The notes below the pieces were generated by a model. That model ran no database searches, was not told the origin of the DNA, and saw only the letters and a list, made by a program, of their open reading frames with translations. Shown one piece after another: positions 6,953-37,248 of a stretch of DNA of 64,000 bases. The DNA is from Pectobacterium atrosepticum (GTDB lineage Bacteria > Pseudomonadota > Gammaproteobacteria > Enterobacterales > Enterobacteriaceae). Each line of letters starts with the position of its first letter. Within the stretch, counting starts at the first letter, position 1. The translations under genes were made by a program, and so were the position numbers. The stretch covers positions 3,534,001 through 3,598,000 of the forward strand of contig CP036163.1 of assembly GCA_019056595.1 (NCBI GenBank). The letters run 5' to 3'.

Positions 6953-7003
6953 GAGGAAGGCTCCAAATTACGACCAAACTGCAAGTAGTGGCTTTTAGTG
7001 GAA

Positions 7004-7039
7004 ACTTAAACGTTTAAGTGTTCAACTTAAACGTTTAAG
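7004..7039 (-). promoter_or_regulatory. Twin palindromic operators flanking the rafA -35 box
   Basis: The 14-bp perfect palindrome CTTAAACGTTTAAG occurs twice, at 7005-7018 and 7026-7039, 21 bp centre to centre (two helical turns). On the minus strand the bases between them read TTGAAC, a plausible -35 hexamer for rafA; the -10 is weak. This matches what is known of the E. coli raf operon, where two palindromes flank the -35 box and bind RafR. A TGTGA half-site at 7044-7048 could belong to a CRP site but lacks a good second half. Confidence 0.85.
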
Positions 7040-7171
7040 AAATGTGATTTTGTTAAAACAATCGTGAGTAAATGGGAATAAATTTCGAAGAAGATGTGAA
7101 CGGCATCTCGCTGTCGGATGGTGTAAAAAACCAACCGGTGTCTTTATGAGGGAGGGAGAGAACGGAATAGC

Positions 7172-8176
7172 TTAGGCGGGAAAACTCGTTTTACCGATGC
7201 GCAGCGTCGGCTGCCATAATACCTGCAAGTTTTCTACGGCTTCGCCCGCGATGAGCGCCTGCGTCATGCTGGCAATTTGTTCGCCAACCTGTTCGCGTGT
7301 CGCCTGCTCTATTGCGGTTACGTTGAGGTCGGTCAGGCTGTCCTGTGGTAAACCGTCATACATCACTAACGCTATAGGGTGTGGACCGGAAAGACGACCG
7401 GCCTGCTGCAATGCGGCAACGGCACCGTCGCCATGAACGTTGCCATCCATCACAATCGCGGTTGGCGGTTCAGGTAGCGCCAGAAGGTCGAGCATAGCCT
7501 GGTAGCCCGCGCGGCGTGTTGGGTCCACACCACGCAGATAGTCATCGTGAAACGGCAAGTTGTGGCGTTGCAGAGCATCGCGATAGCCCTGACGACGTTG
7601 CATAATAAACGCCTGTGGATGGTCTTCGCTTAACATGGCGATGCGGCGATGGCCGAGCGTAATCAGGTGTTCGGTCGCCAGCGACATGCCTGCGCGGTTG
7701 TCAAAATCGAACCAAGCGTAAGGGTGCGATAGTTGGCTGCGCCCCAGTGCCAGAAAAGGCACCTTGTGGTGTTGCAGCAACATCAGCCGCGCATCTTGTT
7801 CGCACGTATGCGCCACAATCAGCGCGTCGATACGGTGGCTGGTGATCAACCGGACAGCACCCTGACAGGCGTCTTGTTCGTCTGCCAGCAGGAGAAAATC
7901 CACGTCGTGCTGCGCCAGTTTGCTGCTGATCGCACCAATCATCTCAAAAAAGATATCGTTACTCAGGGAGGAGGCGTAGGGATAGACCAGCCCGATGGCA
8001 TCGCTTTTACCCATTTTCAGACGGCGCGCGTGCGTATTGGGGCGATAACCGATACGTTCCGCTTCTTCCTGAATACGCTGGCGCGTGGCTTCGGAGATAT
8101 CTCGATGGCCGTTCAGAGCACGGCTCACCGCGGTTACCGACAAACCCAGGTTATTCGCGATTGTTTTTAAAGACAT
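7172..8176 (-). CDS. rafR: LacI-family repressor of the raffinose operon
   Basis: This is a 334-residue LacI/GalR repressor. The N-terminal helix-turn-helix reads LKTIANNLGLSVTAVSRALNG, with the hinge following near residues 45-60, then a periplasmic-binding-like effector domain. The chosen start is the ATG at 8176, with AGGAG six bases upstream; a GTG at 8179 would add one residue. It lies directly upstream of rafA on the same strand, separated by the two palindromic operators, so it most likely represses rafAB until an alpha-galactoside binds. Confidence 0.88.
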   Translation of the reverse strand: MSLKTIANNLGLSVTAVSRALNGHRDISEATRQRIQEEAERIGYRPNTHARRLKMGKSDAIGLVYPYASSLSNDIFFEMIGAISSKLAQHDVDFLLLADEQDACQGAVRLITSHRIDALIVAHTCEQDARLMLLQHHKVPFLALGRSQLSHPYAWFDFDNRAGMSLATEHLITLGHRRIAMLSEDHPQAFIMQRRQGYRDALQRHNLPFHDDYLRGVDPTRRAGYQAMLDLLALPEPPTAIVMDGNVHGDGAVAALQQAGRLSGPHPIALVMYDGLPQDSLTDLNVTAIEQATREQVGEQIASMTQALIAGEAVENLQVLWQPTLRIGKTSFPA

Positions 8177-8229: not shown

Positions 8230-8838
8230 TTATAGCAACCACCCTTTGGCTTTGGCGTCTTCCAGATGCTGCTTCATGTATTGCCACAGTTCCGGGTTGA
8301 TAGTGGCGATGAACTCGGCGCGGTCGAGAACCTGTTCCAAACGGATGCCGTTTTCTACCCAGCTTTGGCCGCCGTTGTAGAGGTTCATCAGCATAGGCAT
8401 AACGCGATCGAGTACCAGAGCGAACTGGGCGCTGGGGGTTTCATTGGCTTCGTATTCTTCCCACAGATCCTGGAATTGCTGACGCTGTGGTTCCGGCAGT
8501 AGGCCGAAAATGCGGGCCGCGGCAGCGACTTCCTGATCGTGAATCGCCAGCCGAGCGGAAAGATCGTACACGATCACATCGCCCGCATCGATTTCGACGA
8601 TATCGTGAATCAGCGCCATTTGGATCACGCGCTGAATATCCACGCCTTCACCTGCGTAAGGAGCCAGCGCCATCGCGGCGACGGCAAAATGCCAGCTGTG
8701 TTCGGCAGAATCTTCATGACGTTCGCTGCCGATAATCTTGGTGCGGCGCTGTACGCTTTTCAATTTATCGATTTCTATCAGAAAGCCGAAAACATCGGTC
8801 ATGGAACCGAAATTCAGAGTAGATGGGGAAGATGACAT
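8230..8838 (-). CDS. HD-domain phosphohydrolase (HD_3 / YfbR-HDDC2 type)
   Basis: This is a 202-residue cytoplasmic protein with a metal-dependent HD fold. The ligands are visible as His in ERHEDSAEHSWH and the HD pair in ALIHDIVEIDAGD, with a later Asp in VLDRVMP. The family includes 5'-deoxynucleotidases such as YfbR and human HDDC2; the exact substrate cannot be told. It stands alone on the minus strand, 54 bp upstream of rafR, and probably has its own promoter. GAGG lies about ten bases before the ATG at 8838. Confidence 0.8.
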   Translation of the reverse strand: MSSSPSTLNFGSMTDVFGFLIEIDKLKSVQRRTKIIGSERHEDSAEHSWHFAVAAMALAPYAGEGVDIQRVIQMALIHDIVEIDAGDVIVYDLSARLAIHDQEVAAAARIFGLLPEPQRQQFQDLWEEYEANETPSAQFALVLDRVMPMLMNLYNGGQSWVENGIRLEQVLDRAEFIATINPELWQYMKQHLEDAKAKGWLL

Positions 8839-9256
8839 GAAAGGCTTACCTCTTGCAGTGAAAACGATGCAGTAAAAGTCATGCAGTGAAACGGTATGTA
8901 GTGGTAACTACAGCAAGGCGCTGTGAGCGTCATAACCGGATAACCGTTAACGCGAATAGCCGGTAAGAACGACAGAGCCCTTCAAAAAACAGGAAGATAT
9001 CGAAGTCGAACATTCTAGGGGATGTTGTCCGAGATTGACATGCATGATTGCACGTTAAGTGGGTGAGAAAGCCAAAAGTAAGGCGGTAATAATTATTTTA
9101 GCTTACACGTGTACACTGAAACTATTCTCAGTTAATCTGCTCAAAGGTTAAACACCTACGCCTGCTTCGCTCTGTACAAGAGCGGGAAAGGTAAGGCGGA
9201 TGACGTCAGCGTACGACGTTGTTGAATGTGTACTGTTAATACTGCGGAACCTATTG
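8839..9256. other. Divergent intergenic region, HD protein / yqfA
   Basis: These 418 bp separate two divergent genes and should hold both promoters. No RNA gene or repeat was recognised. An in-frame ATG at 9200 with AAGG upstream offers an alternative yqfA start. Confidence 0.5.
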
Positions 9257-9904
9257 ATGTCAAAAAATGCACAGATGTCGGACTACTCGCTGGCAGAGGA
9301 AATTGCGAATAGCATAAGCCATGGAATCGGTGTGATTTTCGGTATTGTTGGTCTGGTTTTACTGCTGGTGCAGGCGGTCAACAATGATGCTGGCAGCGTG
9401 GCGATTACCAGCTATAGCCTCTATGGCGGCAGCATTATTCTGCTGTTTTTAGCGTCGACGCTGTACCACGCGATTCCCTCGCCGCGTATCAAACCGTGGC
9501 TGAAAAAATTCGACCACTGCGCTATTTATCTATTGATTGCCGGAACCTATACGCCATTTTTGCTGATCGGGCTGGATTCACCGCTGGCGCATGGCTTGAT
9601 GGTTGTCATCTGGAGCATGGCGCTGTTTGGCGTGATCTTCAAGCTGGCGTTTGCCCACCGTTTTGAAGTGCTGTCGTTGATTACCTATCTGGTCATGGGC
9701 TGGCTGTCGCTGGTGGTGATTTATCAGATGGTGATGAAGCTGTCGGCGGGGAGTGTGACACTGCTGGCGGTAGGTGGCGTGGTGTATACGCTGGGGGTGA
9801 TTTTCTACGCCAGTAAGCGTATTCCCTATAATCACGCGATTTGGCACGGATTTGTTTTAGGCGGCAGCGTTTGCCACTTTCTGGCGATTTATCTTTATAT
9901 TTAA
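9257..9904 (+). CDS. yqfA: Hemolysin III / PAQR-family inner membrane protein
   Basis: From the ATG at 9257 the product is 215 residues, close to E. coli YqfA (about 219). It has around seven hydrophobic helices and the family signatures [16 protein letters not shown] near the N-terminus, [24 protein letters not shown], and a C-terminal NHAIWHGFV. The conserved His/Asp/Ser residues are those of the PAQR/hemolysin III superfamily. Despite the family name no haemolytic activity should be assumed. A 234-residue version starting at 9200 is possible. Confidence 0.9.
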
Positions 9905-9936
9905 TCTTTGTGTGCTTGCCGATAGCGTATGGCGTG

Positions 9937-10075
9937 CAGTGATAATGGGTAGATCGTAAAGACGCTGTGAATACATCCCTGTACGCTCAAGCCGCGCGGA
10001 TATGAATCTCATCCCTGAGATTCACCCTTTCAGGGCTGTCGCGGACGCTTTACTCTTCTATCCCATTATCACTGT
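9937..10075. repeat. Long imperfect palindrome, MITE-like
   Basis: The ends CAGTGATAATGGG (9938-9950) and CCCATTATCACTG (about 10062-10074) are perfect inverted repeats. Complementarity continues inward imperfectly (GTAAAGACG against CGCTTTAC), and an inner hairpin TGAATCTCA / TGAGATTCA lies near 10003-10024. The whole 139-bp unit can fold into one stem and has no coding capacity. It occupies most of the gap between convergent yqfA and ygfZ and looks like a non-autonomous palindromic element of this genus. Confidence 0.65.
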
Positions 10076-10127
10076 TATCGTTCTGAGAAGAGATTTGCCA
10101 TCTTCATGATGTGGCTTACTCGTCGGA

Positions 10128-11129
10128 TTAATCCGTTATTTCATACGGCAGAGGCTGAACGGTGAGTTGGCTGTCGGCATCGTCACGTACACGCAGGGTA
10201 TTCTCTGCGTTCAGATCGTTATTCAGCACTGCCTGCACCCACACGTCACCGTTCTGCAATTGGCTGGCTGCCAGCACCGTACCCGTACGACGCCAGTTCT
10301 CGCCGAGCTGCAATTCGAGATCGTCCCCTGCCTGAGGCACCTTATTTGCCTTACCCGCCAGCCAGTAGAGCGCCCGCTTGTTTGCTCCGCGATATTTTGC
10401 CCTAGCGACCATTTCCTGACCGGTATAGCACCCTTTGCTGAAGCTAATCCCATTTAATGCCTGTAAATTAGTCGCTTGCGGGATGAACTGCGCACTGTTT
10501 GCGCTGTCAATGATGGGTTGACCTGCTTCAATATCTAGCGTCAGCCACTGGCGGCTGTCATTCAGGCTGACTTTATCGCCGAGCTGTTCAAGCAGTGAAG
10601 CACTGGGTTCAGGAGACAGCACCAGCAGGAAACGTTCTGCAGGATGGGCGAAATGCAGTAAGGTGGCGCCTTCGTGCTGAACGACAGGGTGCTCAGCGTC
10701 TGGAAGTTGGCTAAATACAGAGGCCAGCAGTTCACGGATACCTGCACCCGCGGCGCCCAGCAGGATAGTGTTATCGTCTGGCGCGATGGCCGTTTTCGAG
10801 AAAACGGCGTATTTTTTCAGTTCGCTAAGCTGGACGTCGCGTAGGTTACGACGCTCAATGAAAGCAAAACCTTCGCCGTGATGGAACAGACGCAGGTTGC
10901 TCCACATTTTCCCTTTCGCGTCGCAGTGGGCGCAAAGGATGTGCCCATTGTCAGGCAGCGCCCCGACATCTGCGGTGACCTGTCCCTGAAGATATTTGAC
11001 GGTATCCGGCCCGACCAGCGTGGCCAGTGCCCAGTCATCCAGTGAGATGAGCGTGGCGGCCAGTTGGGTGGACGCAAATGGGAGCTGTGAGGCAAAAGGA
11101 AGTTGATGAGCCGTATGTTGGTTAACCAT
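10128..11129 (-). CDS. ygfZ: Folate-dependent Fe-S cluster assembly factor YgfZ
   Basis: YgfZ is a GcvT-like, tetrahydrofolate-binding protein that helps build or repair certain iron-sulfur enzymes. The start taken is the ATG at 11129, with AGGA nine bases upstream, giving 333 residues (E. coli 326). The family signature [17 protein letters not shown] lies at about 232-248 with essential C234, and [16 protein letters not shown] precedes it. An upstream extension to 11252 reads poorly and was not used. It is divergent from sdhE, as in other enterobacteria. Confidence 0.93.
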
Positions 11130-11364
11130 ATAGTACAATCCTGCGCTAAGGGCGATACCCGAATGGCCTAATGGTAAAAGAGCGCTCAGGGTTTGCAAGT
11201 GGTTATTCACGCAGCGTTGTGGCATAGCACATCCTGATACTGATGAGCGCACTTGGCGCAGTACACGTGGGTAAACTATGTCAAAATGTTACTATTAGTT
11301 GATGCCCGCTACCGGAATCGGAGTACACTAACGGCAAGTAGCGATAACAAGGTGGACATGAAAT

Positions 11365-11631
11365 ATGGAAATCGATAATAAATCACGCATTCATTGGGCA
11401 TGCCGCCGTGGTATGCGTGAACTGGATATCGCGATCATGCCGTTTTTTGAGCATGACTATGACACACTTAATGACAGTGATAAGCGCGCGTTTGTACGCC
11501 TGTTACAAAGCGACGATCCCGATTTATTCAACTGGCTGATGAACCACGGTGAACCGAAGGACGGAGAGTTGAAACGTATGATTTCCCTTATTCAGACGCG
11601 AAATAAAGACCGTGGCCCAGTGGCAATGTGA
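11365..11631 (+). CDS. sdhE: FAD assembly factor SdhE
   Basis: SdhE (YgfY/CptB) promotes covalent flavinylation of succinate dehydrogenase and fumarate reductase. The product is 88 residues with the signature RGMRELD near residue 15, followed by the compact helical core ending [20 protein letters not shown]. The ATG at 11365 overlaps nothing upstream; the 3' end overlaps ygfX by 20 bases, the arrangement seen in Serratia and E. coli. Confidence 0.96.
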
Positions 11632-12025
11632 CCTTCGTGTTTCCTGGCGCATGCAACTGCTGTCATTGGTTGTGCATGGCCTACTCGTATTGCTCATTCT
11701 GCTGGCACCGTGGCCGGACGGTTACGCATGGCTATGGCTATGCTTAGTCACGATGGTGATGTTCGGTTTTATCCGTAGCCAAAGGAATATCAAATCCCGA
11801 CAGGGGGAAATCGTTTTGCTTAGCGAAACGACCCTGAACTGGCGGCAGCAGGAATGGCAGATCGTCAAACGACCGTGGCTTTTGAAAAATGGCGTGTTGT
11901 TGGCATTGCAATCTATCAACGATAAAGAAAGACAACAGCTGTGGCTGGCATCGGACAGTATGGGCGATGATGAGTGGCGCCATCTGCGTCAGCTTCTTTT
12001 GCAGCAGAAACACTGGGCGCGATAA
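11612..12025 (+). CDS. ygfX: Inner membrane protein YgfX (CptA)
   Basis: This 137-residue protein has two closely spaced transmembrane helices (about 15-33 and 39-55) followed by a cytoplasmic domain with many tryptophans. It is encoded 20 bases into the end of sdhE, so the pair is translationally coupled. The family has been reported both as a partner of SdhE in Serratia and as a cytoskeleton-inhibiting toxin in E. coli; the sequence does not settle which applies here. Confidence 0.9.
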
Positions 12026-12145
12026 CGGCGCGTTTTTACGCGGTGTATCGCGGCCTGTGTGTAGAAAAATCACCACCATGCAGTTTCATATATAATAATT
12101 TGTCATTGCAATACTTTTCTGATGATAGTTAAGGACTAAAGTTAA

Positions 12146-12211
12146 CCTTCATACCTTCATACCTTCATACCTTCATACCTTCATACCTTCATACCTTCAT
12201 ACCTTCATACC
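12146..12211. repeat. Octanucleotide tandem repeat (CCTTCATA x8)
   Basis: Eight perfect copies of CCTTCATA run from 12146 to 12209, followed by a partial copy (CC). The array sits in the 557-bp gap between ygfX and the next gene, about 120 bp after ygfX. It is non-coding on both strands as far as I can see. Arrays of this type change copy number by slippage. The rest of the gap (12026-12582) shows only a probable -10 (TATACT near 12484) for the downstream gene. Confidence 0.95.
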
Positions 12212-12582
12212 ATCTTCCCATTGTCATCACATAGACGAATTGCACCGTCTGGCCTTAGTTGGCTGTGATTTGTTCCTGTATGTGCACTGTAAGTCCCTCA
12301 CAAGCACCACTAATTAATTGATGTGAAAGGCTAACCCGAAAAATACATCAATTTAAACAATGGATTAAGCACACATGGTGCTGACAAGGTAAACGTGAAC
12401 AAATTTCAATCACCAATCGATCTGTAAAAACGATCGATAATTGTATATTGATAGATTTTATAGATCGAAGTGTGTGAGGGTGCTATACTCCATCCGGTTG
12501 TAAAAAGCAGTTTGTCTTACCCATTATTTTTTATTAAATGGATTTAACTATCTGATTTTATGATGATTATAAGGTTTTCGTA

Positions 12583-13098
12583 ATGACTTTGAAGAGTGTT
12601 TTAAGCTGTAGTCTGTTAACAGTGTCATTGATATTCAGCAATGCTAATGCTGCTAACAATGTTTATGTTATTCCTGAGGTAAAGACCTTTGGTGTTGCAA
12701 GTAATGACAATAAGGCTGTGATCTTTCTTGGTTTAGATCAATATGGTCAATTCAAAGGAATGTGTTTTGCACTAAAAGATAAATTCCACTCTATAATTCC
12801 TTTGGTTGATATAGATGTAACATTTGATAGTAAGAAGCTCAACTTGCATGGTATGAGACCTAATGTTGATGATGAAAAAGAAGTTGTATGTATTCTTGGG
12901 TCAGGAGCTACTGACTTTTTAAATTCATTTAAAGGATCTAATAATCTTTATGTTAAGTTAAATTTTAATGGTGAAGTGAAGAAATATAATTTTGATATTA
13001 AAGACTTCAACCGCATCATCAATAACGATAAAGAATATATGAAAGGTCTTGCAGATAATTATAAAAAAGGCATGCGAGCACCTTTGTTTGATAATTAA
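12583..13098 (+). CDS. Secreted hypothetical protein
   Basis: The product is 171 residues with a clear signal peptide (hydrophobic core SLLTVSLIFS, cleavage near ANA-AN at residue 24), so it is periplasmic or exported. The mature part has two cysteines (in GMCFALKD and VVCILGSG) that may pair. I do not recognise a family. The RBS AAGG lies eight bases before the ATG. Codon use is much more AT-rich than in the flanking core genes. It opens the accessory island after ygfX, 316 bp ahead of another secreted protein. Confidence 0.75.
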   Translation: MTLKSVLSCSLLTVSLIFSNANAANNVYVIPEVKTFGVASNDNKAVIFLGLDQYGQFKGMCFALKDKFHSIIPLVDIDVTFDSKKLNLHGMRPNVDDEKEVVCILGSGATDFLNSFKGSNNLYVKLNFNGEVKKYNFDIKDFNRIINNDKEYMKGLADNYKKGMRAPLFDN

Positions 13099-13414
13099 TG
13101 TGAAATTTATTTATACTAAAGTATTTTAGGTGATGTGAGTGTTTGTTCTAAATCAGGTTAGCATAAATAACTTTATGCTTAATGAAAGCGAGAATTTATA
13201 CAGAGGGAGTTATTTTTTCGATTAGTAATTGGCAAGTGTTTTACATTAAATTATATATGCATTTCTTATAGTTTTGGTGTGAAGTGTGTATATGGAAATT
13301 TATCAGTGACGTACCCGATGTTAATGGAAAAATATTATTGATTTTATTTTATTTTTTATATATAAATAATAGCTCGTGTTACTTTATAGGTTGTTGTTAA
13401 TTTAAGGTTAAAAA
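13099..13414. other. AT-rich gap without recognised genes
   Basis: These 316 bp between two secreted-protein genes are strongly AT-rich. No ORF with a good RBS, hairpin or repeat was recognised. Promoter elements for the gene at 13415 probably lie in the last 100 bp. Confidence 0.5.
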
Positions 13415-14131
13415 ATGAAATTAATATGTACTGCTTTTATCATGGCTGCTATGAGTTCTTATGCTCAAGCAGCAACAATTTCTGATATTACCTATACGCC
13501 AGAGCAACTACACTCTGAATATAAAAAGAATGAGTTAAGAGCTGATAATAAATTTAACTGTGATTTTTTTATTAAAGGAAGAGTCAAAGAGATTTATCGC
13601 AGCTCTTTGAGTGATAATGATTACCAAATTAGGTTGCAAGGTAATGTTAATATTAACTTTGATAATTTAGATAGGGGATCGAATACAGGAAAGGATATAG
13701 CAAATTTAAATATTGGCGACTTGGTCTATGTTTATACATCTTCAACATATTTATCTTGGGGGGGGGTATATGGAAGAAAAGGTTTTTCAGTATCTAAAAA
13801 TCTGGATGAAAATGCCTCTTTGAAGAAGGTTGATGGGTTATGTTTAAAAGAAATGAAACCTGTAGAAAAACTCAGTAAAAATAAAAACTTATCAAGTAGT
13901 AACGGTGATTCGTTGAGCCAATTAGAGAAAGAAGAGGCAATAGTAAATTCATATGCTATCGCAGATGAAAGGTTGAATGAAGTATGGAAGTCTTTAACCA
14001 AAACACAGAAAGATGAACTATTAAAAGAACAACGAAATTGGATTAAAGAGAAAGAAAGATGTGCTACAACTGAATGCAAAGTCGAAATGACAATTAATCG
14101 TATAGCTATTATTGAAAAGCATCTTATTTAA
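13415..14131 (+). CDS. Secreted protein: tRNA_anti-like (OB) plus LprI/DUF1311-like domain
   Basis: This 238-residue protein has a signal peptide ending near AQA-AT (residue 20). Residues 25-140 resemble the OB-type tRNA_anti-like domain (YKKNELRADNKF start, KGRVKEI strand). Residues 165-238 resemble DUF1311/LprI: AIADERLNEVWKSL, then LLKEQRNWIKEKERC and a final CKVEMTINRI helix. LprI-type proteins inhibit lysozyme, so a periplasmic protective role is possible but unproven. The gene carries a run of nine G at 13758-13766 (frame TGG-GGG-GGG), so single-base slippage would truncate the protein in mid-chain. AT-rich, island codon use. Confidence 0.72.
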   Translation: MKLICTAFIMAAMSSYAQAATISDITYTPEQLHSEYKKNELRADNKFNCDFFIKGRVKEIYRSSLSDNDYQIRLQGNVNINFDNLDRGSNTGKDIANLNIGDLVYVYTSSTYLSWGGVYGRKGFSVSKNLDENASLKKVDGLCLKEMKPVEKLSKNKNLSSSNGDSLSQLEKEEAIVNSYAIADERLNEVWKSLTKTQKDELLKEQRNWIKEKERCATTECKVEMTINRIAIIEKHLI

Positions 14132-14647
14132 AAATAACATGTTTTTTTGAAGGCTGGTTTTAGACTGGAATACTTAATTTTTTATGAATTGAAAATATTC
14201 TACAAATATATTCATCGTTGTATTAGGTCTAATGCTATACTTAATCTGAAAAAATTCTTTGTACCAAAGTGGATCTTACTGACATCATTGGTATATTAGT
14301 TCATGAGGATAGATTCTTTACCCTGCCAAACTAATAGGAAAATACCAAAGTCTGCATCATTCTCGCGTAAATAGTTACCAACCAATTAGTTAAGCAAACT
14401 CTCATAAATATCAGGCCCAAGCCATGATTTATCTAGAAAATTTAACTCAATAAGCAAAGAGGTATTGGCTTAACATCACTGTATGATTATTAAGAGTGAG
14501 CAGGTCAGATCGCTGCATTCAGTAATATTTGTAGTGCAGTGAATTTTATTCAATATTTCCGATGATTTTCTTTCGAATAAAATATAAGCTTGCTCTATGT
14601 TTATATTAAAATCTGACTAATGTTATTGAATAACAGATATCTATTTT
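14132..14647. other. AT-rich gap without recognised genes
   Basis: These 516 bp lie between the convergent genes ending at 14131 and 14648. No ORF with support, RNA gene or clear terminator was found; the sequence is uniformly AT-rich. Confidence 0.5.
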
Positions 14648-15766
14648 TTAAATTTTGTAAAGGGCAGTTAATCTTTCTTTCTCTTTATCAAAGTATTCAT
14701 CAAGATCTGAGAAGTCTGGCATTGATTCCATCAAGTCTTTCAGTCTGTGAATTAGTCTCCAAGCATCATAATGAATAAAAGGGTTCATTCCTATAACATT
14801 TCCTGCATCAGGTATTGTTGACTTCCCTGCTTTACACAACATTAAGAATTTCTCATAGGCTATATTGTTATCCCAATCTGAGACAAAAAGAAGCAAGGCA
14901 GATACAGCTAGTAGAGGATTGTTCAACATTACAGATGTCGCACTACCAAATTTTCTAAGAAGAAGTTTATGATGACTAGTAATAGATATGGCTAAACTAA
15001 TGGTAGATTGATATTTATCATGCAGTAATCGCCTATCGTAAACATTGTATCCGCGATCCCTTTGAACTAGTCGGTGTACCTTTTTTGTAAATGTGTTGCT
15101 GCGTAGTTTTAGAAAAATATTGTTATTTATATCTTCTACATCGATAATAAGTGACGGGTATTTGTATCTTAGAGAGTTATAAACCTCATCATTTATATTA
15201 AACCATGGCTTTGATTTTCTTTCCTCATCGAGTGTATACACCTTTTCGCCCTTAACAGAATAAAAGCTGGCTCTAACTAAATTTATTAAGTGGGGGCTGT
15301 AGTCAACGGTAAATGTCCCTGATTGACGTAATTCAGTAAACCACTGACGCATATTCCGTATATCTTCCTGATTGAAAGTATGATGTTCAATTCCTCTGCA
15401 TACAAGCTCTCGAATAACTTTCGTAACTTCAGAGCCAGACGCACCTAATTTAATAAACCCATCTCCTGAAGAATCTATTTTCTTATCGTTACCTTTATAA
15501 TGGTCACAGAATACTTTATGAGCATCTGTACCATCCGGCTTCCTGAAAGAAAAATGAGCCTGCCTCACTTTTTTGTTTGTTTTCGTTGAATAACCGTCTG
15601 AAACGATATGAGCACCACTTACATTACAAATTGGGCATTCGGCATCAACTGCAACAAAATCCCGAAAGTCCTTATAATCCAGTAAGCAATTTGATAAAAA
15701 CTGGCTTTCTAACTGAACTATATCCAACTCTTTTTTAAATGTCCGAGAATATATCGTAATTGCCAT
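14648..15766 (-). CDS. Hypothetical protein with N-terminal Cys/His zinc-type cluster
   Basis: The product is 372 residues with no signal peptide or transmembrane segment, so it is probably cytoplasmic. Residues 40-90 hold C44-P-I-C47, H53, H71, H83, C87 and H89, a spacing that suggests a zinc-binding fold loosely reminiscent of the CoiA N-terminus. The rest is mixed alpha/beta with many basic residues (KKVHRLVQRDRGY) and an acidic C-terminus. I do not recognise the family. GGGGA lies six bases before the ATG at 15766. It diverges from the resolvase at 16286, and its AT-rich codons match the island. Confidence 0.7.
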   Translation of the reverse strand: MAITIYSRTFKKELDIVQLESQFLSNCLLDYKDFRDFVAVDAECPICNVSGAHIVSDGYSTKTNKKVRQAHFSFRKPDGTDAHKVFCDHYKGNDKKIDSSGDGFIKLGASGSEVTKVIRELVCRGIEHHTFNQEDIRNMRQWFTELRQSGTFTVDYSPHLINLVRASFYSVKGEKVYTLDEERKSKPWFNINDEVYNSLRYKYPSLIIDVEDINNNIFLKLRSNTFTKKVHRLVQRDRGYNVYDRRLLHDKYQSTISLAISITSHHKLLLRKFGSATSVMLNNPLLAVSALLLFVSDWDNNIAYEKFLMLCKAGKSTIPDAGNVIGMNPFIHYDAWRLIHRLKDLMESMPDFSDLDEYFDKEKERLTALYKI

Positions 15767-16177
15767 GTACAGTCCCCGTTAGCCGAGATTCATGATATAA
15801 CATCATAATGTTGTAGGTGACCACAGGCAGGCTAGACTGTCCTATGAAAACCGTTTTAGTTAAAATTACCTGCCAGAGCGTGGAGAAAACAGCAGTTTTT
15901 TTCTGCATATTCTCGCCCTGATCTCATGTAGCCTTTCCTTTAACTAACTTCTTCGTGCCAGTTTTTTTCATAGCTGGCTGCTGTGTACCAGAAACTGACA
16001 TTGCTAATCTATCGATATGTTAATCATTGGGTAACAGGTTAATGTGACATGCTTCTCATTTATGATCTCTTATTGGTATTCCGAAGGGAAGCGCAATATT
16101 GGGAATCGGTATTATGTTAATCAATTGGGGTAGGTCAGCCGTTCATATTTGCTAGTCGCTTTTATGTATACACAATA
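15767..16177. other. Intergenic region between the zinc-cluster gene and the resolvase
   Basis: About 410 bp with no supported ORF. It contains the divergent promoters; the last 110 bp before the resolvase carry the short repeat array described separately. Confidence 0.5.
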
Positions 16178-16270
16178 GCTACCACTCTGAACTTCCCAAC
16201 AATTGCGATAAATTTATATTGCTACCACATATAAGCTACCTGTATAATCACTACCAGATAAAAGCTACTA
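16178..16270 (+). repeat. Iteron-like short direct repeats before the resolvase
   Basis: The hexamer GCTACC or a one-base variant starts at 16178, 16221, 16235, 16250 (ACTACC) and 16264 (GCTACT). The last four are spaced 14, 15 and 14 bp and share an AT-rich tail, giving a degenerate 14-bp unit. They end 16 bp before the resolvase ATG and overlap a TATAAT at 16243-16248. They could be operators for autoregulation, recombinase sites, or plasmid-type iterons. Confidence 0.6.
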
Positions 16271-16285
16271 GATCGTGAGATTACT

Positions 16286-16900
16286 ATGACAAATCGAGTT
16301 TATGCATACTTAAGAGCATCAACGAAAGAACAGGATGCAGAGAGAGCAAAAGATGAGTTAGTGAGTTTTGCGGCTGATAAGGCGATAACTATTGCAGGGT
16401 GGTTCATTGAAAATGAATCAGGAGCCTGCCTTACCAGACCTGAACTGTTCAGATTGATCGATCTTGCACAACCTAATGACATTTTGCTGGTGGAGCAAGT
16501 TGATCGACTGAGTCGCCTGAATGGACAGGATTGGGAAAAACTATCATGCCTGATCAAATCAAAAGGGATTCGCGTCGTAGCGTTAGATTTACCTACCTCT
16601 CATATGTTGATTCAGAATGGTGATGAGTTCACGACTCGTATGATGGATGCGTTGAATGGGATGATGTTAGATATGTTGGCTGCAATTGCACGTAAGGATT
16701 ATACAGATAGAAGGCGTAGACAGGCACAGGGAATAGTCAAAGCAAAAGCTGAAGGTAAATTCCGTGGTCGTCAAGCTGATACTGCAATGCATGAACGGAT
16801 CAGAAAACTTCGTGATGCAGGGATGTCTTACAGCGATATTCACAAAATGACAGGTATTGCTCGGACAACGATCAGTAGGGTAACAAAATTACGGAACTAA
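16286..16900 (+). CDS. Serine recombinase, resolvase/invertase (Tn3 TnpR type)
   Basis: This 204-residue small serine recombinase starts at the ATG at 16286. The N-terminal catalytic domain has YLRASTKEQ with the nucleophilic serine at residue 12 and the arginine-rich VEQVDRLSRL motif. The E-helix region DMLAAIARKDYTDRRRRQAQGI leads to a C-terminal helix-turn-helix (MSYSDIHKMTGIARTTISRV). Such proteins resolve cointegrates or plasmid dimers. No transposase accompanies it; its neighbours are a polymerase-like gene and a zinc-cluster protein. Confidence 0.92.
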   Translation: MTNRVYAYLRASTKEQDAERAKDELVSFAADKAITIAGWFIENESGACLTRPELFRLIDLAQPNDILLVEQVDRLSRLNGQDWEKLSCLIKSKGIRVVALDLPTSHMLIQNGDEFTTRMMDALNGMMLDMLAAIARKDYTDRRRRQAQGIVKAKAEGKFRGRQADTAMHERIRKLRDAGMSYSDIHKMTGIARTTISRVTKLRN

Positions 16901-17569
16901 GTTTGGAACTGATTAAATGTGTGTGATTTTTTTCATGGCAATAACCTCCTTTGCTTAAGGATAGTATTGCGCCGACCAGTGAAACTCACAACATAAGATC
17001 GATGATTAAATTAGGTTTCACCCATATCAGCAATAGTGCTAGTGTCAGATCCGGCACTGAGTTAATGCATGAATCGGTACTATCAAATTTGGATGGAAAA
17101 TGACCTGATTTCCAAGGCGTTGACTTTTCATTGCTAATTGTATAGAGTGTTTGCTATCAACAATGTTGTTGAAAAAACTGAATTCTCACTGCATATAATT
17201 TTACCCTCTAATGTTAAACAGTGATGCTAGGAAGTGATTACCTAGCTAAAGATGCTGCCTCTCTAGCGTGTATCGTAGTAATAATAACCCTCAATGTTAT
17301 TTATTCTCTATTTCAATTTCAATATTTTTATTCCATCATAATGGGACTAATTCTATTGCTAATTGGCTAAGCTAGCCATCTACTATTTTGATTAAAAAAA
17401 TCCAATGTGTTCTCACATACTTGGAGGATTTTTTTCTGAAAAAAGCAGGAGAGAGAGAAGAAACAGGGAACAAGTATATGTTGCAGTAAAATCATCTAAA
17501 AAACGCGTTGAACCCTTATGTAGCAAGGCTTATAGCCCAATGCAAGGTTTTGACAAACAGGAATCTAAT
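16901..17569. other. Leader region upstream of the polymerase-like gene
   Basis: This 669-bp stretch is AT-rich with no supported gene. TCAACAATGTTGTTGA near 17157-17172 is a perfect palindrome. An in-frame ATG at 17405 would extend the downstream protein by 55 residues but has no ribosome binding site, and the added residues look non-coding. Confidence 0.5.
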
Positions 17570-18961
17570 ATGAGTATTAAACCAAGAAATTTTGATAAAA
17601 ACTTAGAACAACAGCTTATCGGCAATGGCATTTGTACCCAAGCCATCTTAGATAAATATACAAAAGAAGAGAAAAAGTATTACTTTAACCTATTTTATAT
17701 TGGCTCAGTTGGTAGACGAAAACACCCTAATGATAAACACTCGTTTTCTATATATGCTGAGGATAGGCGAAAACATATTCTGAAAGCACCAAGGTTTGAA
17801 GAGATGATACAGGACATCCCATTAATACAACAAACCTGTAATTACTTGGCAACTAAGTGGGCTAAGGGATATACTGTTACCAACACTCACCGTAATATAT
17901 TTTCAGAATGCTGTAACGCCGTCATAAAAGGTTGCGGCCTCGTAGACGAGAACAATAATTCCTACAACCCACCTGCAAATGGTATCCGTTCCATTATGAA
18001 AGATGGTCGAAAATGTAAGATTAAAGATATCATACCAAATGAGATCGCTCTTAATACTTTTTCTCTTAAAAGATTTATGGGCGAACTGAGTAAAACGAAC
18101 GGTAATGAATGCTTTACGAACCAAATTAGAGCACTTCTCTCGATCACAGAAGCCAGTAAGTCAGGTTGCTTACCGACAACCTATGTCCAGAGTAATGGGG
18201 GACGACTGTATGCTGACGGCGCATTAAATCTACAAAATTGCAGCCGTAAAATACGTATAGCCGCACTAGTTGATCATTATGATATTGATATAGAGAATTG
18301 CCATTATACCTTATTGGCGCAAATGTGCAGTCGAATCAATGTTCCCACACCTTATATTGATCACTACATCCGAAACAAAAAAACAGTGCGTACAGAGATA
18401 GCAACGTTTTTTAAATGCTCCGAAGACATGGCGAAGGAAATCCTGATAGCATTAATATACGGTTCAAACCTGACCAGTTATGGAGTTCTTAGTAAACTCA
18501 ATCTGAAATGTGCCGAAGTAGATATTAAGGGAAGTTGGATAGATGGGCTTGCTAAAGAAATAGCGAGGGTCACTAAGAGAGTAGTTGATGACTACACAGA
18601 CAAAACCCCTAGGCATTTCAAGATAAAAAATGATGCTGGGATGTGGAAAGCAACAAAATGTGAAAACGAAACATGTGTAAAAAAATCTAAACTATTAGCA
18701 CATATCCTGCATGGTGCTGAGTCATTTATTCTTCAGCATATGATTCGCTTTCTAGGGGATAACATTGTGTTGCTTCAGCATGATGGGGTAACATGTCTTG
18801 AGCCTGCTGATACTGAGGCACTTAGTGAATATATAGTTGAAAAAACGGGGTACCAAGTCAAGTTCGATATGGAAAAACTTGTCCTCGATTTGAACCATGA
18901 TAATAAAGATACTTTCGAACCTGTTAACCATGAAGAAATATTCGAACTGTACGCTGCATGA
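17570..18961 (+). CDS. Stand-alone single-subunit polymerase-like protein (family A / T7 RNAP fold)
   Basis: From the ATG at 17570 (AGGAA six bases upstream) the product is 463 residues. The C-terminal half carries three motifs in the order and spacing of the Pol I / T7 RNA polymerase palm and fingers. Motif A is YDIDIENCH (D238, D240). The O-helix motif B has K289-x7-Y297-G in AKEILIALIYGS. Motif C is LLQHDGVTC (H404-D405-G406), where DNA polymerases I have HDE and T7 RNAP has HDS. No exonuclease, primase or promoter-recognition domain is evident. It could copy DNA or RNA, prime, or replicate the element. The motif match is my own reading, not a search. It lies between two serine recombinases in an AT-rich island. 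Confidence 0.7.
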   Translation: MSIKPRNFDKNLEQQLIGNGICTQAILDKYTKEEKKYYFNLFYIGSVGRRKHPNDKHSFSIYAEDRRKHILKAPRFEEMIQDIPLIQQTCNYLATKWAKGYTVTNTHRNIFSECCNAVIKGCGLVDENNNSYNPPANGIRSIMKDGRKCKIKDIIPNEIALNTFSLKRFMGELSKTNGNECFTNQIRALLSITEASKSGCLPTTYVQSNGGRLYADGALNLQNCSRKIRIAALVDHYDIDIENCHYTLLAQMCSRINVPTPYIDHYIRNKKTVRTEIATFFKCSEDMAKEILIALIYGSNLTSYGVLSKLNLKCAEVDIKGSWIDGLAKEIARVTKRVVDDYTDKTPRHFKIKNDAGMWKATKCENETCVKKSKLLAHILHGAESFILQHMIRFLGDNIVLLQHDGVTCLEPADTEALSEYIVEKTGYQVKFDMEKLVLDLNHDNKDTFEPVNHEEIFELYAA

Positions 18962-19439
18962 TATCTATCAGCTATAAATCATTCCCAGCCCCCATCATGT
19001 GATGGAGGAGAATATCGAATATATGGTAAGTCTTTACTGTAAAAGATTAAATACTCACTTGTATTAGGACAGTTTTCATACTGAATTTCTGCCGGTAGAC
19101 ATAGAAATTAATTGTGCTGATTTTAATCGTTGCATTAATTCTAAAGGTACATTTTAAATTTTTATGCATTGTATTAAAAATATGAATCATATGCAGAGTG
19201 TAAGGTTTTATTACTTACTCAGCAGCCCTCTATCTGGTTTTTTCTTTTAGATGACTATTTGTCCATTTAAATTTTTTAAACGTTAATATGGCTCTCCCAG
19301 AGCGTTTTAGAAACATTCATATCTATTGTTTGAGTTGTTGATTTTTATTTTAGAAAATGAAAAGCCTATATTCCCCTATTAGCTACTCACTCGTTACTAA
19401 TAGGGGAAATGTAAAGTATCTATATAACTAATATGGATT
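18962..19439. other. Gap downstream of the polymerase-like gene, with hairpin
   Basis: These 478 bp have no supported gene. Near the right end a 12-bp perfect stem TTCCCCTATTAG / CTAATAGGGGAA (19371-19382, 19397-19408, 14-base loop) stands 32 bp beyond the stop of the minus-strand recombinase and may terminate it. It could also be a recombination site; no matching copy was seen elsewhere in the window. Confidence 0.5.
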
Positions 19440-20942
19440 TTAATCATCTTTAAGATATTCATTTAACAGATTTTTCAGAGCAATCGAATCGCTCACAAAT
19501 TTGAGTTTTCCATTGTCTAGCATGAAGCTCTGTGTATGGCCTGATAGATGAAAAATTCTCACTGCCCAGCTAGATCCTGAGCGAGTTACCGTGATGCTTT
19601 TTAAAACCCGTTTTAGCATAAGATTAAGTTCTAAACTATCAGTGATACTCGATAGCTTTGCGTTATTGACGGCGTCAATGCCACGCTGTTCTCGCTCAAC
19701 TTTTGCTTGCTGCTCTGTTATTTCTTTTACGCGTGCTTCCATTGTACTGATTGTTTTAATGACAGACGAAGGAACTTCATCAACTTCCTGTAACGTGATG
19801 TTTAGATTAGCTATTCTCTTCTCAAGCTGTTTTTTTTCAAGATAGGCTGATTTATCAGACGTAACAGCCTTTTTGAACTCTAGCCGACCCAGCATAGTTG
19901 CTAATGCGTTATCTAATCCTTTGATCGAGAGATTTTGAGAACAACGACCATCTTTGGCGTTTAGGCAACCATGATAAACGTACAGTTTCCCTCTTACCGT
20001 GCTCTTTCTTTTTATTAATGCACCACCGCATCCACAGCGTAATAGACCACTATAAGGATTATCAGTGCTACGGCGTCCTCGCGTAGATTTGCTTTGGTCA
20101 GATTGAAGTAACAACCACTCATCTTTACTGATCAGGGCAGGGTAGTATCCTTCTACTATCTCTAGTTGGATCATTTCTCTTTCTTTGTTCGTTTCACCCG
20201 TCTGATAGGCACCATATAACGCTGGGTTCTTTAGCATTTTAGTTATTGATGCATGATTCCATTGTGCTGTACGAATCCCTGCTATGCACTGTTTATTGAG
20301 AAATTTAGCTATCATATTGCTACCTTTACCCTCTTGCTTGAGCGTGACTATCTGCCTAGCAGTTTCCATTTTGTCGCTGAACGCGTATCCCGTTTCAGTG
20401 CGCTTTAGCCAAAAAGGGAGGATTTTATTAATAGGAATGCCCTTAAGTGCATTCTGTCTCTGCTGCCCTTTAGTTTGTCGCAAGCGTAGTGCTTTACGCT
20501 CCGACTCACTGTGAGCAATGTCAGCAGCTACAGCTATACGGATGACACTTTGTAAATCATTTAGACTATTTTTGGTTAATACCAAGCCATCTGAAAGGCT
20601 GACGATTTGCACATCCTTGCGGAGGATTTCTTTCACCGTTTCCTGTGTTGCATCAATACCACGTCGTGAAAGCCGATCCAGTGCTTCAATAATAATCGTT
20701 GAGCCAGCAGTAATCTGCCCTTCATCTATTGCGGTGAGCATATCAGCTAACGAAGGGCGTTTACCTTCACGGAAAGCACTTATCCCCAGATCTTGAAAAT
20801 TCTTGCTGGAAAGTCTCAGCATATGTCTGCTGGCGTATTCCTCAGCCATTTCCGTTTGTCTGCGGAGACTATCACCCGATGCCTGTTTCTTGCTCGAAAA
20901 ACGCACATAACTGTAGGCGATCCCATTGTTATCTTGTGGCAT
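19440..20942 (-). CDS. Large serine recombinase (site-specific integrase type)
   Basis: This 500-residue protein has the layout of phage-type large serine integrases. The catalytic domain is at 1-150, with YVRFSSKKQ (nucleophile S16) and EALDRLSRRG. A Recombinase domain follows at about 165-290, then a zinc ribbon (LLRCGCGGALIKR ... YHGCLNAKDGRC) at about 310-345 and a coiled coil near 370-430. Such enzymes integrate and excise mobile elements at short att sites without host factors. It sits at the right edge of the accessory island and is the best candidate for having inserted it. I could not identify attL/attR. Confidence 0.92.
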   Translation of the reverse strand: MPQDNNGIAYSYVRFSSKKQASGDSLRRQTEMAEEYASRHMLRLSSKNFQDLGISAFREGKRPSLADMLTAIDEGQITAGSTIIIEALDRLSRRGIDATQETVKEILRKDVQIVSLSDGLVLTKNSLNDLQSVIRIAVAADIAHSESERKALRLRQTKGQQRQNALKGIPINKILPFWLKRTETGYAFSDKMETARQIVTLKQEGKGSNMIAKFLNKQCIAGIRTAQWNHASITKMLKNPALYGAYQTGETNKEREMIQLEIVEGYYPALISKDEWLLLQSDQSKSTRGRRSTDNPYSGLLRCGCGGALIKRKSTVRGKLYVYHGCLNAKDGRCSQNLSIKGLDNALATMLGRLEFKKAVTSDKSAYLEKKQLEKRIANLNITLQEVDEVPSSVIKTISTMEARVKEITEQQAKVEREQRGIDAVNNAKLSSITDSLELNLMLKRVLKSITVTRSGSSWAVRIFHLSGHTQSFMLDNGKLKFVSDSIALKNLLNEYLKDD

Positions 20943-21120
20943 AATGTGTCCAAAATCACGTTTCTATAAGAGAAGAGTAAATCCTTTGCTATTAAGTAAC
21001 AATATCACGGTGATTTACGGAAATAATCGCAGCAGGTATCTTACGCCGCTTCGTGAGGATAGGATATCGGCTGTTCCCGTCAGGGAAATGTTGGCTTTCC
21101 TTTCTCTTTCCTCTGTTCTA

Positions 21121-21200
21121 TACCCTAAATAATTCGAGTGGCGTGACAAAACGTTGGCGTTTTGAACAACGCACAAGCAGCTTGAAGTATGACGGGTATA
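21121..21200. repeat. Short ERIC-related palindromic element
   Basis: The unit begins TACCCTAAATAATTCGAGT and ends CAGCTTGAAGTATGACGGGTA. These are imperfect inverted repeats of each other and the same kind of ends as the ERIC element at 44352-44472. The usual ERIC centre is replaced by a short different sequence, so this is a shortened relative. It lies between the recombinase and rlmF, near the right edge of the island. The remainder of 20943-21264 shows nothing else. Confidence 0.7.
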
Positions 21201-21264
21201 TACGGGAAAATGTTCTTATTCGGCCACCGTCTGGCCGTGCCTTGAAATTTATTGGGTATAATTG

Positions 21265-22200
21265 ATGACTAAGCCCGCAGTGCAAAAAAGTGGTCTGCAT
21301 CCTCGCAATCGCCATCGCGACCGTTATGATTTTCCCGCGCTCAAACAGAGCTATCCTGCGCTGATCCCGTTTGTAAAGGTGAATGCCTACGGTGATGAGT
21401 CAGTGGACTTTGCCAATCCCGAGGCGGTGAAAACGCTGAATCAGGCGTTGTTGCAGCATTTTTATCAGATTGAGCACTGGACGATTCCAGACGGCTTTCT
21501 GTGCCCACCGATCCCCGGTCGCGCCGACTATGTCCACCACCTTGCCGATTTACTGGCGGAAGATAACCGCTCGGTGGTGCCGCGTGATGCATCCGTGCTG
21601 GATGTCGGCTGCGGTGCTAACTGCGTTTACCCGCTGATTGGACATCGTGAGTACGGTTGGCGTTTTACCGGCAGCGAGGTTAATCCGCTGGCGATGAAAG
21701 CGGCCAATGAGACGATTGAGGCGAACTCCGGCTTGAACCGTTCGATTCGTCTGCGCCGTCAGAAAAACAGCAAAGCGATACTGGCAGGCATTATTCACAA
21801 GAATGACTCGTTTGATGCCGTCATGTGTAATCCACCGTTCCATGCCTCTGCTGAGGATGCCCGTGAGGGATCGCAACGCAAGTTGCATAATTTGGGGCTG
21901 GATAAACGCTCACCGCTGAATTTTGGCGGCCAGCAGGACGAGCTATGGTGTGAAGGCGGCGAGTTAGCCTTCATCGGTCAGATGATCAAAGATAGCGTCA
22001 GCTTCGGCCGTCAATGCCTGTGGTTTACGTCGCTCGTGTCGCGCAAAGAGCACCTTCCGGAGATTTACCGTGCGCTGGAAGCGGTTGATGCGGAAAAGGT
22101 CAGAACGATAGATATGGCGCAAGGCCAGAAGCAAAGCCGCTTTGTCGCGTGGAGTTTTCTGGATACCGCCGCACGGGCCCGCTGGTTACAAAAGCGCTAA
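21265..22200 (+). CDS. rlmF: 23S rRNA (adenine(1618)-N6)-methyltransferase
   Basis: RlmF methylates A1618 of 23S rRNA using S-adenosylmethionine. The product is 311 residues from the ATG at 21265; a TTG at 21262 would add one. Recognisable features are the N-terminal [16 protein letters not shown], the SAM-binding glycine motif [16 protein letters not shown], and the adenine-methylase motif NPPFH. GC-rich codon use returns here, marking the end of the AT-rich island. It is followed by a strong terminator. Confidence 0.95.
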
Positions 22201-22294
22201 GCGACTTCAACCTTTACGGATACCAATCTTCGCGGACATTAACCTTCACGGATAGTTGTCGCAAAGGTATCCGTGAACGTTTTGTTGTCAGCAA

Positions 22295-35898: not shown

Positions 35899-35972
35899 GC
35901 GAGTGTAGTTCAATGGTAGAACGGCAGCTTCCCAAGCTGCATACGAGGGTTCGATTCCCTTCACTCGCTCCA
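35899..35972 (+). tRNA. glyU: tRNA-Gly (anticodon CCC)
   Basis: The 74-base sequence folds as a standard tRNA. The acceptor stem is GCGAGTG / CACTCGC, the D-loop contains TTCAATGGTAG, the anticodon arm is GCAGC-TTCCCAA-GCTGC with anticodon CCC, the T-loop is GGGTTCGATTCCC, and the 3' end TCCA is encoded. It is very close to E. coli glyU. The accessory-looking region starting about 500 bp downstream makes it a possible integration site, although no duplicated 3' end was seen. Confidence 0.97.
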
Positions 35973-36483
35973 GGCTCTCTTCCTACAACGTCCATCCATG
36001 TTTATTAAATCCAGTAACCACAAGACTTAGCACTACTTTTCAGTCGTTCAGGGAAAGCACTCGTCTATCTAAATCAGTATCTCAATGTATATAGTTATGT
36101 ATAGGGCATGGTGACACTCTAAATCCTATACACATTCTCCCCCTACTCAGATAGGAAACTATACACATGCCGCTTACTGGTTTTGAGAGCAGCGGCGCCA
36201 AGCCAGTACCTTTCAGGAAGATGTTTTCCTGTTCATTTACATCGACCACTGTGGATATTCAGGTAGTGGGGCTAATGCCAGTGTTAGAAAAATGGGATGA
36301 ATGTAGATCCACCTAGAAATGTTGCAAAGCTTTGAAAATGTAAAGTTTATTTATAATAATTGGTTTATATTTCACAAGATATATTATAGATTATAAGAGA
36401 GCGATTTATTTAAAGGATTAGCGGTGAGTTGTTAAGTGTCTGGTAGCTTAATACTAATAATTTTAAACAAGGAGAGATATTGC
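35973..36483. other. Intergenic region between tRNA-Gly and the PspA-like gene
   Basis: These 511 bp carry no supported gene. CTATACACAT occurs twice, at 36126-36135 and 36159-36168, within a segment that could be a degraded att or insertion site. The last 120 bp are AT-rich and should hold the promoter of the downstream genes. Confidence 0.5.
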
Positions 36484-37173
36484 ATGAGTCTTTTATCTAA
36501 AGTAGTGACACAAATTAAGGGTTTCCTTCATGATTCCGTAGATAAGGCTTCTGATGACGGACGTACTGCACGCCAACTTATTCGTGATGTCGGTGAAAAT
36601 GAAGAAAAAATCAAAGAGGCGTTAGTAGAATCCAGATCTCAGGCTATTATTTCCAAACAGAAAGTTGAAGATAAGCAATCTGCAATCGCTTTGTCGAAAA
36701 AACGAGCAGCAAAGGCAGTTGAGTTGGACAAGGAAGATTTGGCAAGAACTATTCTTGTTGAAAAAAGACAGCAGGAAAGTGATTTGGCAGCGCTTCAAAA
36801 CCAGCAAGCTAAATTTGATAATATTGTAGTTACATTAACTTCACGTTTTAATGACATTCAGAAAAAACGTTCTGAAATGGAAAGAAAGGCAGATAGTATT
36901 GACTTGCGTTCTAAAGTCGCAGCGGCAACTGAAGAAGCAACAAAATTACTTGATGTAGGTAATTTTGCTTCTTATGATAGCGCTTCTAAAGTATTTGATC
37001 GTTTAGAAGATAATATTGCAAAAAAAGAAGCAAAATCTCAGGCTCGTGGTGAGTTTATTGATGCAGAGAAAGATAAGCAAGACGAGTTGGTTTCTCTTGA
37101 TAGACATGGCCTTGATGAGTCAATTGAAGATGAGTTAGCGGCATTACGTGCTATGAATAAAAAACAAGAATAA
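36484..37173 (+). CDS. PspA/IM30 (ESCRT-III superfamily) membrane-remodelling protein
   Basis: From the ATG at 36484 (AAGGAGAG seven bases upstream) the product is 229 residues, close to PspA (about 222). It is almost entirely long alpha-helical coiled coil, starting with an amphipathic MSLLSKVVTQIKGFL helix and containing the PspA-like KEDLARTILVEKRQQESDL hairpin region. PspA/IM30 proteins polymerise on membranes and relieve envelope damage. It is unlike the standard pspA operon: no pspB, pspC or pspF is nearby. A large membrane protein follows after 75 bp and may be its anchor. AT-rich codon use. Confidence 0.85.
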   Translation: MSLLSKVVTQIKGFLHDSVDKASDDGRTARQLIRDVGENEEKIKEALVESRSQAIISKQKVEDKQSAIALSKKRAAKAVELDKEDLARTILVEKRQQESDLAALQNQQAKFDNIVVTLTSRFNDIQKKRSEMERKADSIDLRSKVAAATEEATKLLDVGNFASYDSASKVFDRLEDNIAKKEAKSQARGEFIDAEKDKQDELVSLDRHGLDESIEDELAALRAMNKKQE

Positions 37174-37248
37174 AATAAAAATAATCTTCGAGGGTATAGA
37201 AATATACCTTCCATTGTATTTATTTTTCAATAGAAGATAAGAGGTTCT

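Follow-up and report, generated by a model that had tools for sequence, protein, structure and literature searches.

We observed that a gene within the 64,000-nucleotide stretch of Pectobacterium atrosepticum DNA analysed here (the window) encodes a nuclease-free family-A polymerase core, with an arginine motif (R212), two palm aspartates (D240 and D405) and a fingers lysine (K289). The protein is very likely TV-Pol-like, and resembles a group of polymerases defined in 2008 (available part of PMC2579912), so that the enzyme has known kin. It is encoded on a small island that carries a large serine integrase. The superfamily, the conserved active-site residues, the island borders and the shared gene set were all computed. 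We consider it reasonably probable that the gene is the replication gene of this integrative island, a primase-polymerase serving the island once it is excised.

The polymerase reading frame and its conserved residues

The reading frame and motifs A, B and C were found where the preliminary description had placed them (Table 1). Their order and rough spacing are close to those of the genome's own DNA polymerase I (PolA), with 49 residues from A to B and 116 from B to C, in comparison to 53 and 124 in PolA. The start codon at 17570 is not settled. An AGGA lies just 5' of it; the frame is open upstream to an ATG at 17405 (which would give 518 aa), and the ten residues ahead of 17570 (from the ATG at 17540 onward) are alike in the P. 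brasiliense homologue.

We further aligned a set of 16 sequences (the window protein, the loci L001 and L037, two Polaromonas plasmids, three viral contigs, the phage Ma-LMM01 and seven distant proteins). R212, D240, K289, E384, H404, D405 and G406 were invariant in this alignment, although some of the sequences are near each other and the 16 are thus not independent. The motifs thus go beyond chance similarity, and their conservation among homologues, which had been put forward as a check, was observed.

The predicted catalytic pair is D240 and D405. The initial proposal had been D238 and D405, of which D405 stands (16/16). D238 was dropped, since this position varies (D, E, N and S in 5, 4, 6 and 1 of the 16 sequences); D240 (codon 18287-18289) is instead present in 16/16 and lies opposite the D of the PolA motif DYSQIE in the profile alignment. 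The HDG of motif C had been regarded as unusual. It is present in all 16 sequences and is the rule of this family, and we no longer treat it as a peculiarity of the window gene. T7-type RNA polymerases have a motif C of the HDS type.

Pfam and NCBIfam gave zero families up to E 1 for the window polymerase, in agreement with the earlier statement that it has no exonuclease or other recognised domain; the models for DNA polymerase I (PF00476) and T7-type RNA polymerase (PF00940) were likewise not matched up to E 1. With PHROGs, no family better than E 0.095 was seen.

Table 1. Coordinates of the island, its genes and the polymerase motifs in the window
Feature	Position	Strand	Remarks
Left junction, attL core CAC (chromosome then island)	12074..12076		
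Integrated island, about 8.93 kb	12077..21005		Flanks abutting in relatives
171-aa protein, signal-peptide-like start (by eye)	12583..13098	+	Common to L001; not found in the L037 stretch examined
238-aa protein, C-terminal LprI domain	13415..14131	+	Pfam PF07007 E 2.1e-7; window, L001, L037
372-aa cargo protein, PHROG 12525	14648..15766	-	E 2.6e-108
Small serine recombinase, resolvase/invertase type	16286..16900	+	PF00239 E 1.4e-22, HTH_7 9.2e-6
Family-A polymerase, very likely TV-Pol-like	17570..18961	+	463 aa; start provisional
Motif GGRLY with R212	18197..18211	+	R212 16/16; aligned with TGRLS of PolA
Motif A, YDIDIENCH, residues 237-245	18278..18304	+	Predicted catalytic D240; H245 opposite E of PolA DYSQIE
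Motif B, K289-x7-Y297-G298	18434..18463	+	I293 opposite F of PolA KAINFGLIYG
Motif C, QHDG, residues 403-406	18776..18787	+	Predicted catalytic D405
Large serine integrase, 500 aa (Resolvase + Recombinase)	19440..20942	-	PF00239 9.8e-19, PF07508 3.7e-19
Right junction, attR core CAC (island then chromosome)	21006..21008		

Relationship to family-A polymerases

A profile of 11 homologues was compared with 13 cellular PolA sequences, and gave a score of 59.9 (E 2.4e-6); with 16 homologues the score was 77.4 (E 1.5e-8). The control maxima from 100 column shuffles each were 23.4 and 22.5, and reversed alignments gave 19.7 and 17.9 (11- and 16-homologue profiles, respectively). The profile alignment placed GGRLY..NLQN on TGRLS..NLQN, K289 and the YG on KAINFGLIYG, and QHDG on VHDE of PolA. 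T7 DNA polymerase as a single sequence gave match probabilities of 3.5 and 38% with a low score, and T7 RNA polymerase (gp1) gave 0.2-0.8%, a one-sequence profile being a weak test.

The AlphaFold2 model, made from six sequences, was weak (mean pLDDT 58.8), with a better core: the ten-residue block means were 53-94 over residues 231-430, and most other blocks were lower. Foldseek against the PDB returned 195 matches, 16 of them at E <=0.001 (best E 1.2e-4). The best 50 of the 195 were family-A DNA polymerases, with mitochondrial RNA polymerases from rank 40, and the TM-scores were low (0.19-0.35 by query length). A core-only model gave a like kind of list (best E 1.2e-3, none <=0.001), and its fold was no improvement on the full-length one. 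Both models matched palm/fingers polymerases, the fold that the preliminary description had proposed looking for. Against the viral structures of BFVD (whose E-values are not strictly comparable with those of the PDB library) we obtained 33 matches at E <=0.001. The top row (E 6.4e-10) was nameless, and the named ones included the DNA replication protein of Zamilon virus (E 2.6e-7) and the helicase/primase/polymerase of a Qinghai Lake virophage (E 7.5e-7).

Searches of PDB sequences with the window sequence and with the profile found no polymerase. One profile match, to neutrophil-activating protein (E 0.0032), lay at profile positions 54-196, which do not include the catalytic core, and we discounted it as a chance hit. 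When we looked for the coiled-coil thumb of TV-Pols, we observed that residues 163-173 and 180-194 were predicted as helices with pLDDT <50; the beta-hairpin region of R212 is also a low-confidence part of the model.

Membership of the superfamily of PolA and T7 RNA polymerase, as first suggested from the motifs, was supported by the PolA profile match (77.4, shuffles <=22.5) and by the family-A matches in Foldseek, and the window protein is almost certainly a family-A polymerase relative. Like cellular DNA polymerase I, it has GRL, NLQN, the motif-A aspartate, K-x7-YG and HD in this order. It differs in having no nuclease domain, in an H for the E of DYSQIE, and in HDG for HDE.

Distribution of the homologues

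Homologues of the window polymerase are uncommon. In overlapping genome samples, one was found in 3 of 295 genomes of the family (one distant), 1 of 369 of the class (its own genome), 6 of 398 of the phylum (mostly distant) and 6 of 25 of the genus (four distant). The close homologues are those of P. brasiliense CFBP8736 (L001, 84% identity) and of another genus of the family (L006/L037, about 55-56%). A further genome of the same genus, G302, bears what looks like the P. brasiliense CFBP8736 island. Two Polaromonas plasmids and three viral contigs have moderate homologues (20-25% identity), and the distant ones are from phage Ma-LMM01 (13%) and seven proteins of six genomes.

Several matches were omitted from the alignment of 16. 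Among them were 16 viral-contig loci bearing a Ma-LMM01-type protein (84-94% identical to that of Ma-LMM01), of which one, L045, was used in the alignments for structure prediction. The relics of Klebsiella and of the second island were also left out, as were a weak match on a Calothrix plasmid and those in G299, G296 and G313. No match was obtained when phage records were searched by tblastn with the window protein or the homologue P0008, and a viral-contig scan using the Polaromonas protein gave no relative.

The link with Ma-LMM01 came from profiles. The homologue P0006 matched PHROG 34692, the family of a Ma-LMM01 protein, at E 1.1e-5, and a profile built without the Ma-LMM01 protein retrieved that protein at E 2.6e-5 (best stretch 5.6e-4), as the sole match among ORFs from 50 of the phage's 162 kb. 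The Pfam and NCBIfam models all stayed below their cut-offs on the window protein and on the relatives scanned. Two such hits, of Clp_N to P0006 (E 8e-4) and of gyrase A to P0003 (E 0.009), were disregarded.

We also evaluated the surroundings of the homologues. On the Polaromonas plasmid pW9NP1, the homologue ends 10 bp ahead of repA. We dropped the idea that it is the plasmid initiator proper, as both Polaromonas plasmids have a separate annotated RepA (PF04796 confirmed for pW9NP1). Serine recombinases were present on both plasmids and on the viral contig L042. In the stretches searched around L043, L044 and several distant homologues there was no relative of the island's serine recombinases; this search, which used the island's own recombinases as query, also missed the recombinase of L042. 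Tyrosine integrases lie near the polymerase in L068, L071 and L072.

Some further observations were made on these loci. Distant HDG polymerases from the same genus or family lie in L070, L071 and L072, close to tyrosine integrases (assigned by Pfam for L071 and L072, and by eye for L070), and in L072 two very large genes follow, helicase-like and methylase/restriction-enzyme-like by eye. L043:3687-6698 has parA and the polymerase gene mid-contig, among genes that look phage-structural by eye. L038 has two distant polymerases on one contig about 0.8 kb apart (6453-7850 and 8682-10133), with motif C as LDHDG and IEHDG and a radC-like gene near (by eye). Three Klebsiella pneumoniae records (H3-H5; L005:6001-6129) have a 43-residue C-terminal relic of the polymerase with 49% identity.

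Island borders and insertion sites

The gene had been described as lying in a recombinase-bearing island, and this was confirmed by the two serine recombinases of Table 1 and by empty sites in relatives. The GC content per kb was 0.30-0.43 in the island and 0.49-0.59 in the flanking kilobases. In relatives without the island, window 11001-12076 runs straight into 20995-22202 (three of the four genomes inspected). When 19 same-genus loci (drawn from 24 other genomes) were checked by BLAST, both flanks abutted in 8, and in the remaining 11 the right-hand flank was missing or, at one locus, set apart. The attB reads GTAGAAACATCAC-CAC-GGTGATTT, attL reads AATCAC-CAC-CATGCAGTTTC, and attR reads AACAATAT-CAC-GGTGATTT; these junctions give an island of about 8.93 kb. 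The sequence CATGCAGTTTCATAT, right of the left junction, is common to the island ends in L001 and L035. We take the flanking genes, read by eye, to be ygfX/cptA and rlmF.

A second copy of the integrase, 95% identical, is present in the same genome at G000:C2:1151887. It belongs to a second island of about 8.1 kb (G000:C2 about 1151821-1159908; L035:8822-16908), which has entered an ABC-F-type gene, presumably ybiT, at its 5' end. This island keeps the integrase, and only the last 40 residues of the polymerase as a relic; a transposase-like ORF (by eye) lies near the relic. The ybiT-like site was native in 22 of the 25 same-genus genomes, and had an island end in three (the own genome, G151 and G302); in G151, the match was limited to an end with 35 codons of the integrase. 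Insertion swaps the first codons of the ybiT-like gene in frame. The islands of P. brasiliense (L001) and L037 are in the ybiT-like gene too, with only the right end seen for L037. In this genome the second island fills the usual site, and the window copy lies at a secondary one; the occupation of the usual site may have led to the secondary insertion.

Two features outside the island were also seen. A dispersed repeat of about 82 bp lies just outside the right junction (21119-21200), with many copies, roughly 80-98% identical, among the matches listed in same-genus genomes. At 35899-39000, about 3 kb of low GC (0.31-0.37) come after a tRNA-Gly gene and may be a further island.

The shared gene set

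The window, L001 and L037 islands have four genes in common, those of the LprI protein, the small serine recombinase, the polymerase and the large integrase; the other genes are variable. The zinc ribbon of the large integrase scores just below its cut-off. Of the four proteins compared, the small recombinase is the best conserved (95% and 94% identity of the window protein with L001 and L037, respectively), and the integrase (90/86%) and the LprI protein (76/71%) have lower values; the polymerase is 84% identical to that of L001. The dN/dS values in the window-L001 comparison were 0.06 for the small recombinase, 0.13 for the integrase and 0.30 for the polymerase (NG86 dS was undefined for the polymerase against L037). 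A helicase, an SSB or a partner of the CCPol-MP type was not recognised by Pfam among the six island proteins scanned. A literature search, with thin coverage of subscription journals, found no description of the island or the polymerase.

Relation to TV-Pols and CCPol

The TV-Pols were defined in 2008, with the Sputnik virophage and Ma-LMM01 among their carriers; they were linked to resolvases and integrases, an RxxxK fingers motif was given for them, and primase plus polymerase activity was predicted (Iyer et al., PMC2579912, available part). The Ma-LMM01 protein used here is presumably the one named in that paper, being the sole match among the phage ORFs searched. The window protein is like the TV-Pols in having a family-A core of 400-600 aa without nucleases, a conserved arginine and two palm aspartates, in its mobile-element setting with serine recombinases, and in its links to virophages by structure and to Ma-LMM01 by profile. 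It is unlike them in that RxxxK is not kept: K289 is present in 16/16 and an R at K-4 in only 2/16, with E285 in the window protein, and the Ma-LMM01 protein as aligned here is also without it. No helicase was recognised among the six scanned proteins of the window island, a further difference from the TV-Pols. A TVpol-helicase fusion occurs in polinton-like viruses (PMC4642659, available part). Since RxxxK is absent, we call the window protein TV-Pol-like rather than a strict member of the group.

The best studied relative is the CCPol-MP of SCCmec/SCC elements, a DNA primase that starts de novo and requires the two catalytic aspartates of CCPol; in the available text, CCPol was as of 2020 the sole TV-Pol member characterised biochemically, to its authors' knowledge (PMC7581432). 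The related PolA-SSB primases, which are marked by de novo primer synthesis and by a helicase and an OB-fold SSB gene lying adjacent, are widespread in Bacillota (PMC10061031, available part). Like CCPol, the window protein is a nuclease-free family-A polymerase on a serine-integrase island. However, CCPol, which is near Pol I and carries the annotation PolA, acts together with MP, and the helicase Cch2 is encoded alongside it (PMC7581432, as far as available), whereas the window protein matches no PolA model and has H245 and I293 at the positions discussed below.

Positions of ribonucleotide discrimination

Position 245 was H, Q and N in 10, 4 and 2 of the 16 sequences, and never the E of DNA polymerase I. 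We take the glutamate of DYSQIE to be E710, and the phenylalanine of KAINFGLIYG to be F762. T7 RNA polymerase has a G at the equivalent of position 245. Position 293 was I or L in 10 of the 16; L069 has T there, and the five sequences that are most distant, and whose alignment is less sure, have Y, F or H. CCPol keeps both residues (its E174 and F225), which discriminate against ribonucleotides in E. coli Pol I (PMC7581432, available part), and both are changed in the window protein. H245 and I293 may affect its choice of substrate. With these positions changed and 245 never E, one might picture a primase of the Pol I fold able to use ribonucleotides and to make RNA or mixed primers alone, with neither a partner protein nor a helicase of its own, as a one-gene starter of replication for a small island. 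We put this forward as an unlikely speculation drawn from residue changes.

Proposed role of the polymerase and alternative explanations

If the polymerase is a replication gene of the island, the large serine integrase would insert and excise the island, with the 5' end of the ybiT-like gene as the usual target and the window copy in its secondary site. Once the island is excised as a circle, the polymerase would most likely prime and extend DNA along single strands of the island, and the host would supply the helicase and the single-strand-binding protein. The small serine recombinase would probably resolve dimers or join recombination steps. This role is favoured by the profile match, the Foldseek matches in the PDB, the virophage matches in BFVD, the profile links to Ma-LMM01, the shared gene set, the dN/dS of the polymerase, the repA next to the homologue on pW9NP1 and the precedent of CCPol-MP. 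Against it are the weak model, the low TM-scores, the core-only model having no PDB match at E <=0.001, the lack of a polymerase among the PDB sequence matches and the absence of RxxxK. The failure to recognise a helicase or a CCPol-MP-type partner among the six island proteins scanned also speaks against it, as does the lack of a relative of the island's serine recombinases in the stretches searched around L043, L044 and several distant homologues. The second island persists with only a relic of the polymerase, so that the gene is dispensable for the persistence of an inserted copy, and this also counts against it. Of the two roles first offered, that of an integrated element's replicase or primer-making enzyme stands as the best functional guess, and no evidence was found for the defence role.

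A different possibility, which we consider unlikely, is that the polymerase and the small serine recombinase form a replicative transposon, with the large integrase and the cargo as passengers. Replicative transposition has been proposed for TV-Pol/resolvase elements (PMC2579912, available part). In the window, L001, L037, both Polaromonas plasmids and L042, the homologue has a serine recombinase no more than about 5 kb away, and of the four proteins the small recombinase shows the highest conservation. However, the borders as measured fit the large integrase (core CAC, ybiT-like target), about 5 kb separate the recombinase from the polymerase in L037, and L068, L071 and L072 have tyrosine integrases instead.

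The polymerase might also be a decaying, inactive relic, as relics are present in the second island of the same genome and in the three Klebsiella records, and its dN/dS is above that of both recombinases. We regard this as improbable, since the protein is full length with 7/7 invariant positions kept, and the frames are open in the window, L001 and L037.

An anti-phage defence enzyme, or another conflict gene carried as cargo, has very little probability: such islands do have variable cargo, and L037 has a nuclease-like gene (by eye), but PADLOC gave no match better than E 0.045 for the polymerase, the gene belongs to the set common to the three islands rather than to the variable cargo, and the homologues include some on plasmids that carry repA and parA, and one on a contig that has parA. 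It is just as hard to credit that the protein transcribes the island as a T7-type RNA polymerase, for which the shared superfamily and the change of the PolA glutamate to H245 would speak, since DNA polymerases outrank this type in Foldseek and are nearer by fold and profile, the (weak, one-sequence) comparison with gp1 gave a low probability, and the window protein is much smaller and presumably has no room for a T7-type promoter-binding domain.

Implications

The window protein represents a far more diverged branch than CCPol, and is carried by small islands whose borders were measured. With it one could test directly whether a minimal polymerase-A core starts chains alone, and which sugar it uses. 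This bears on the parting of DNA polymerases, RNA polymerases and primases of this fold.
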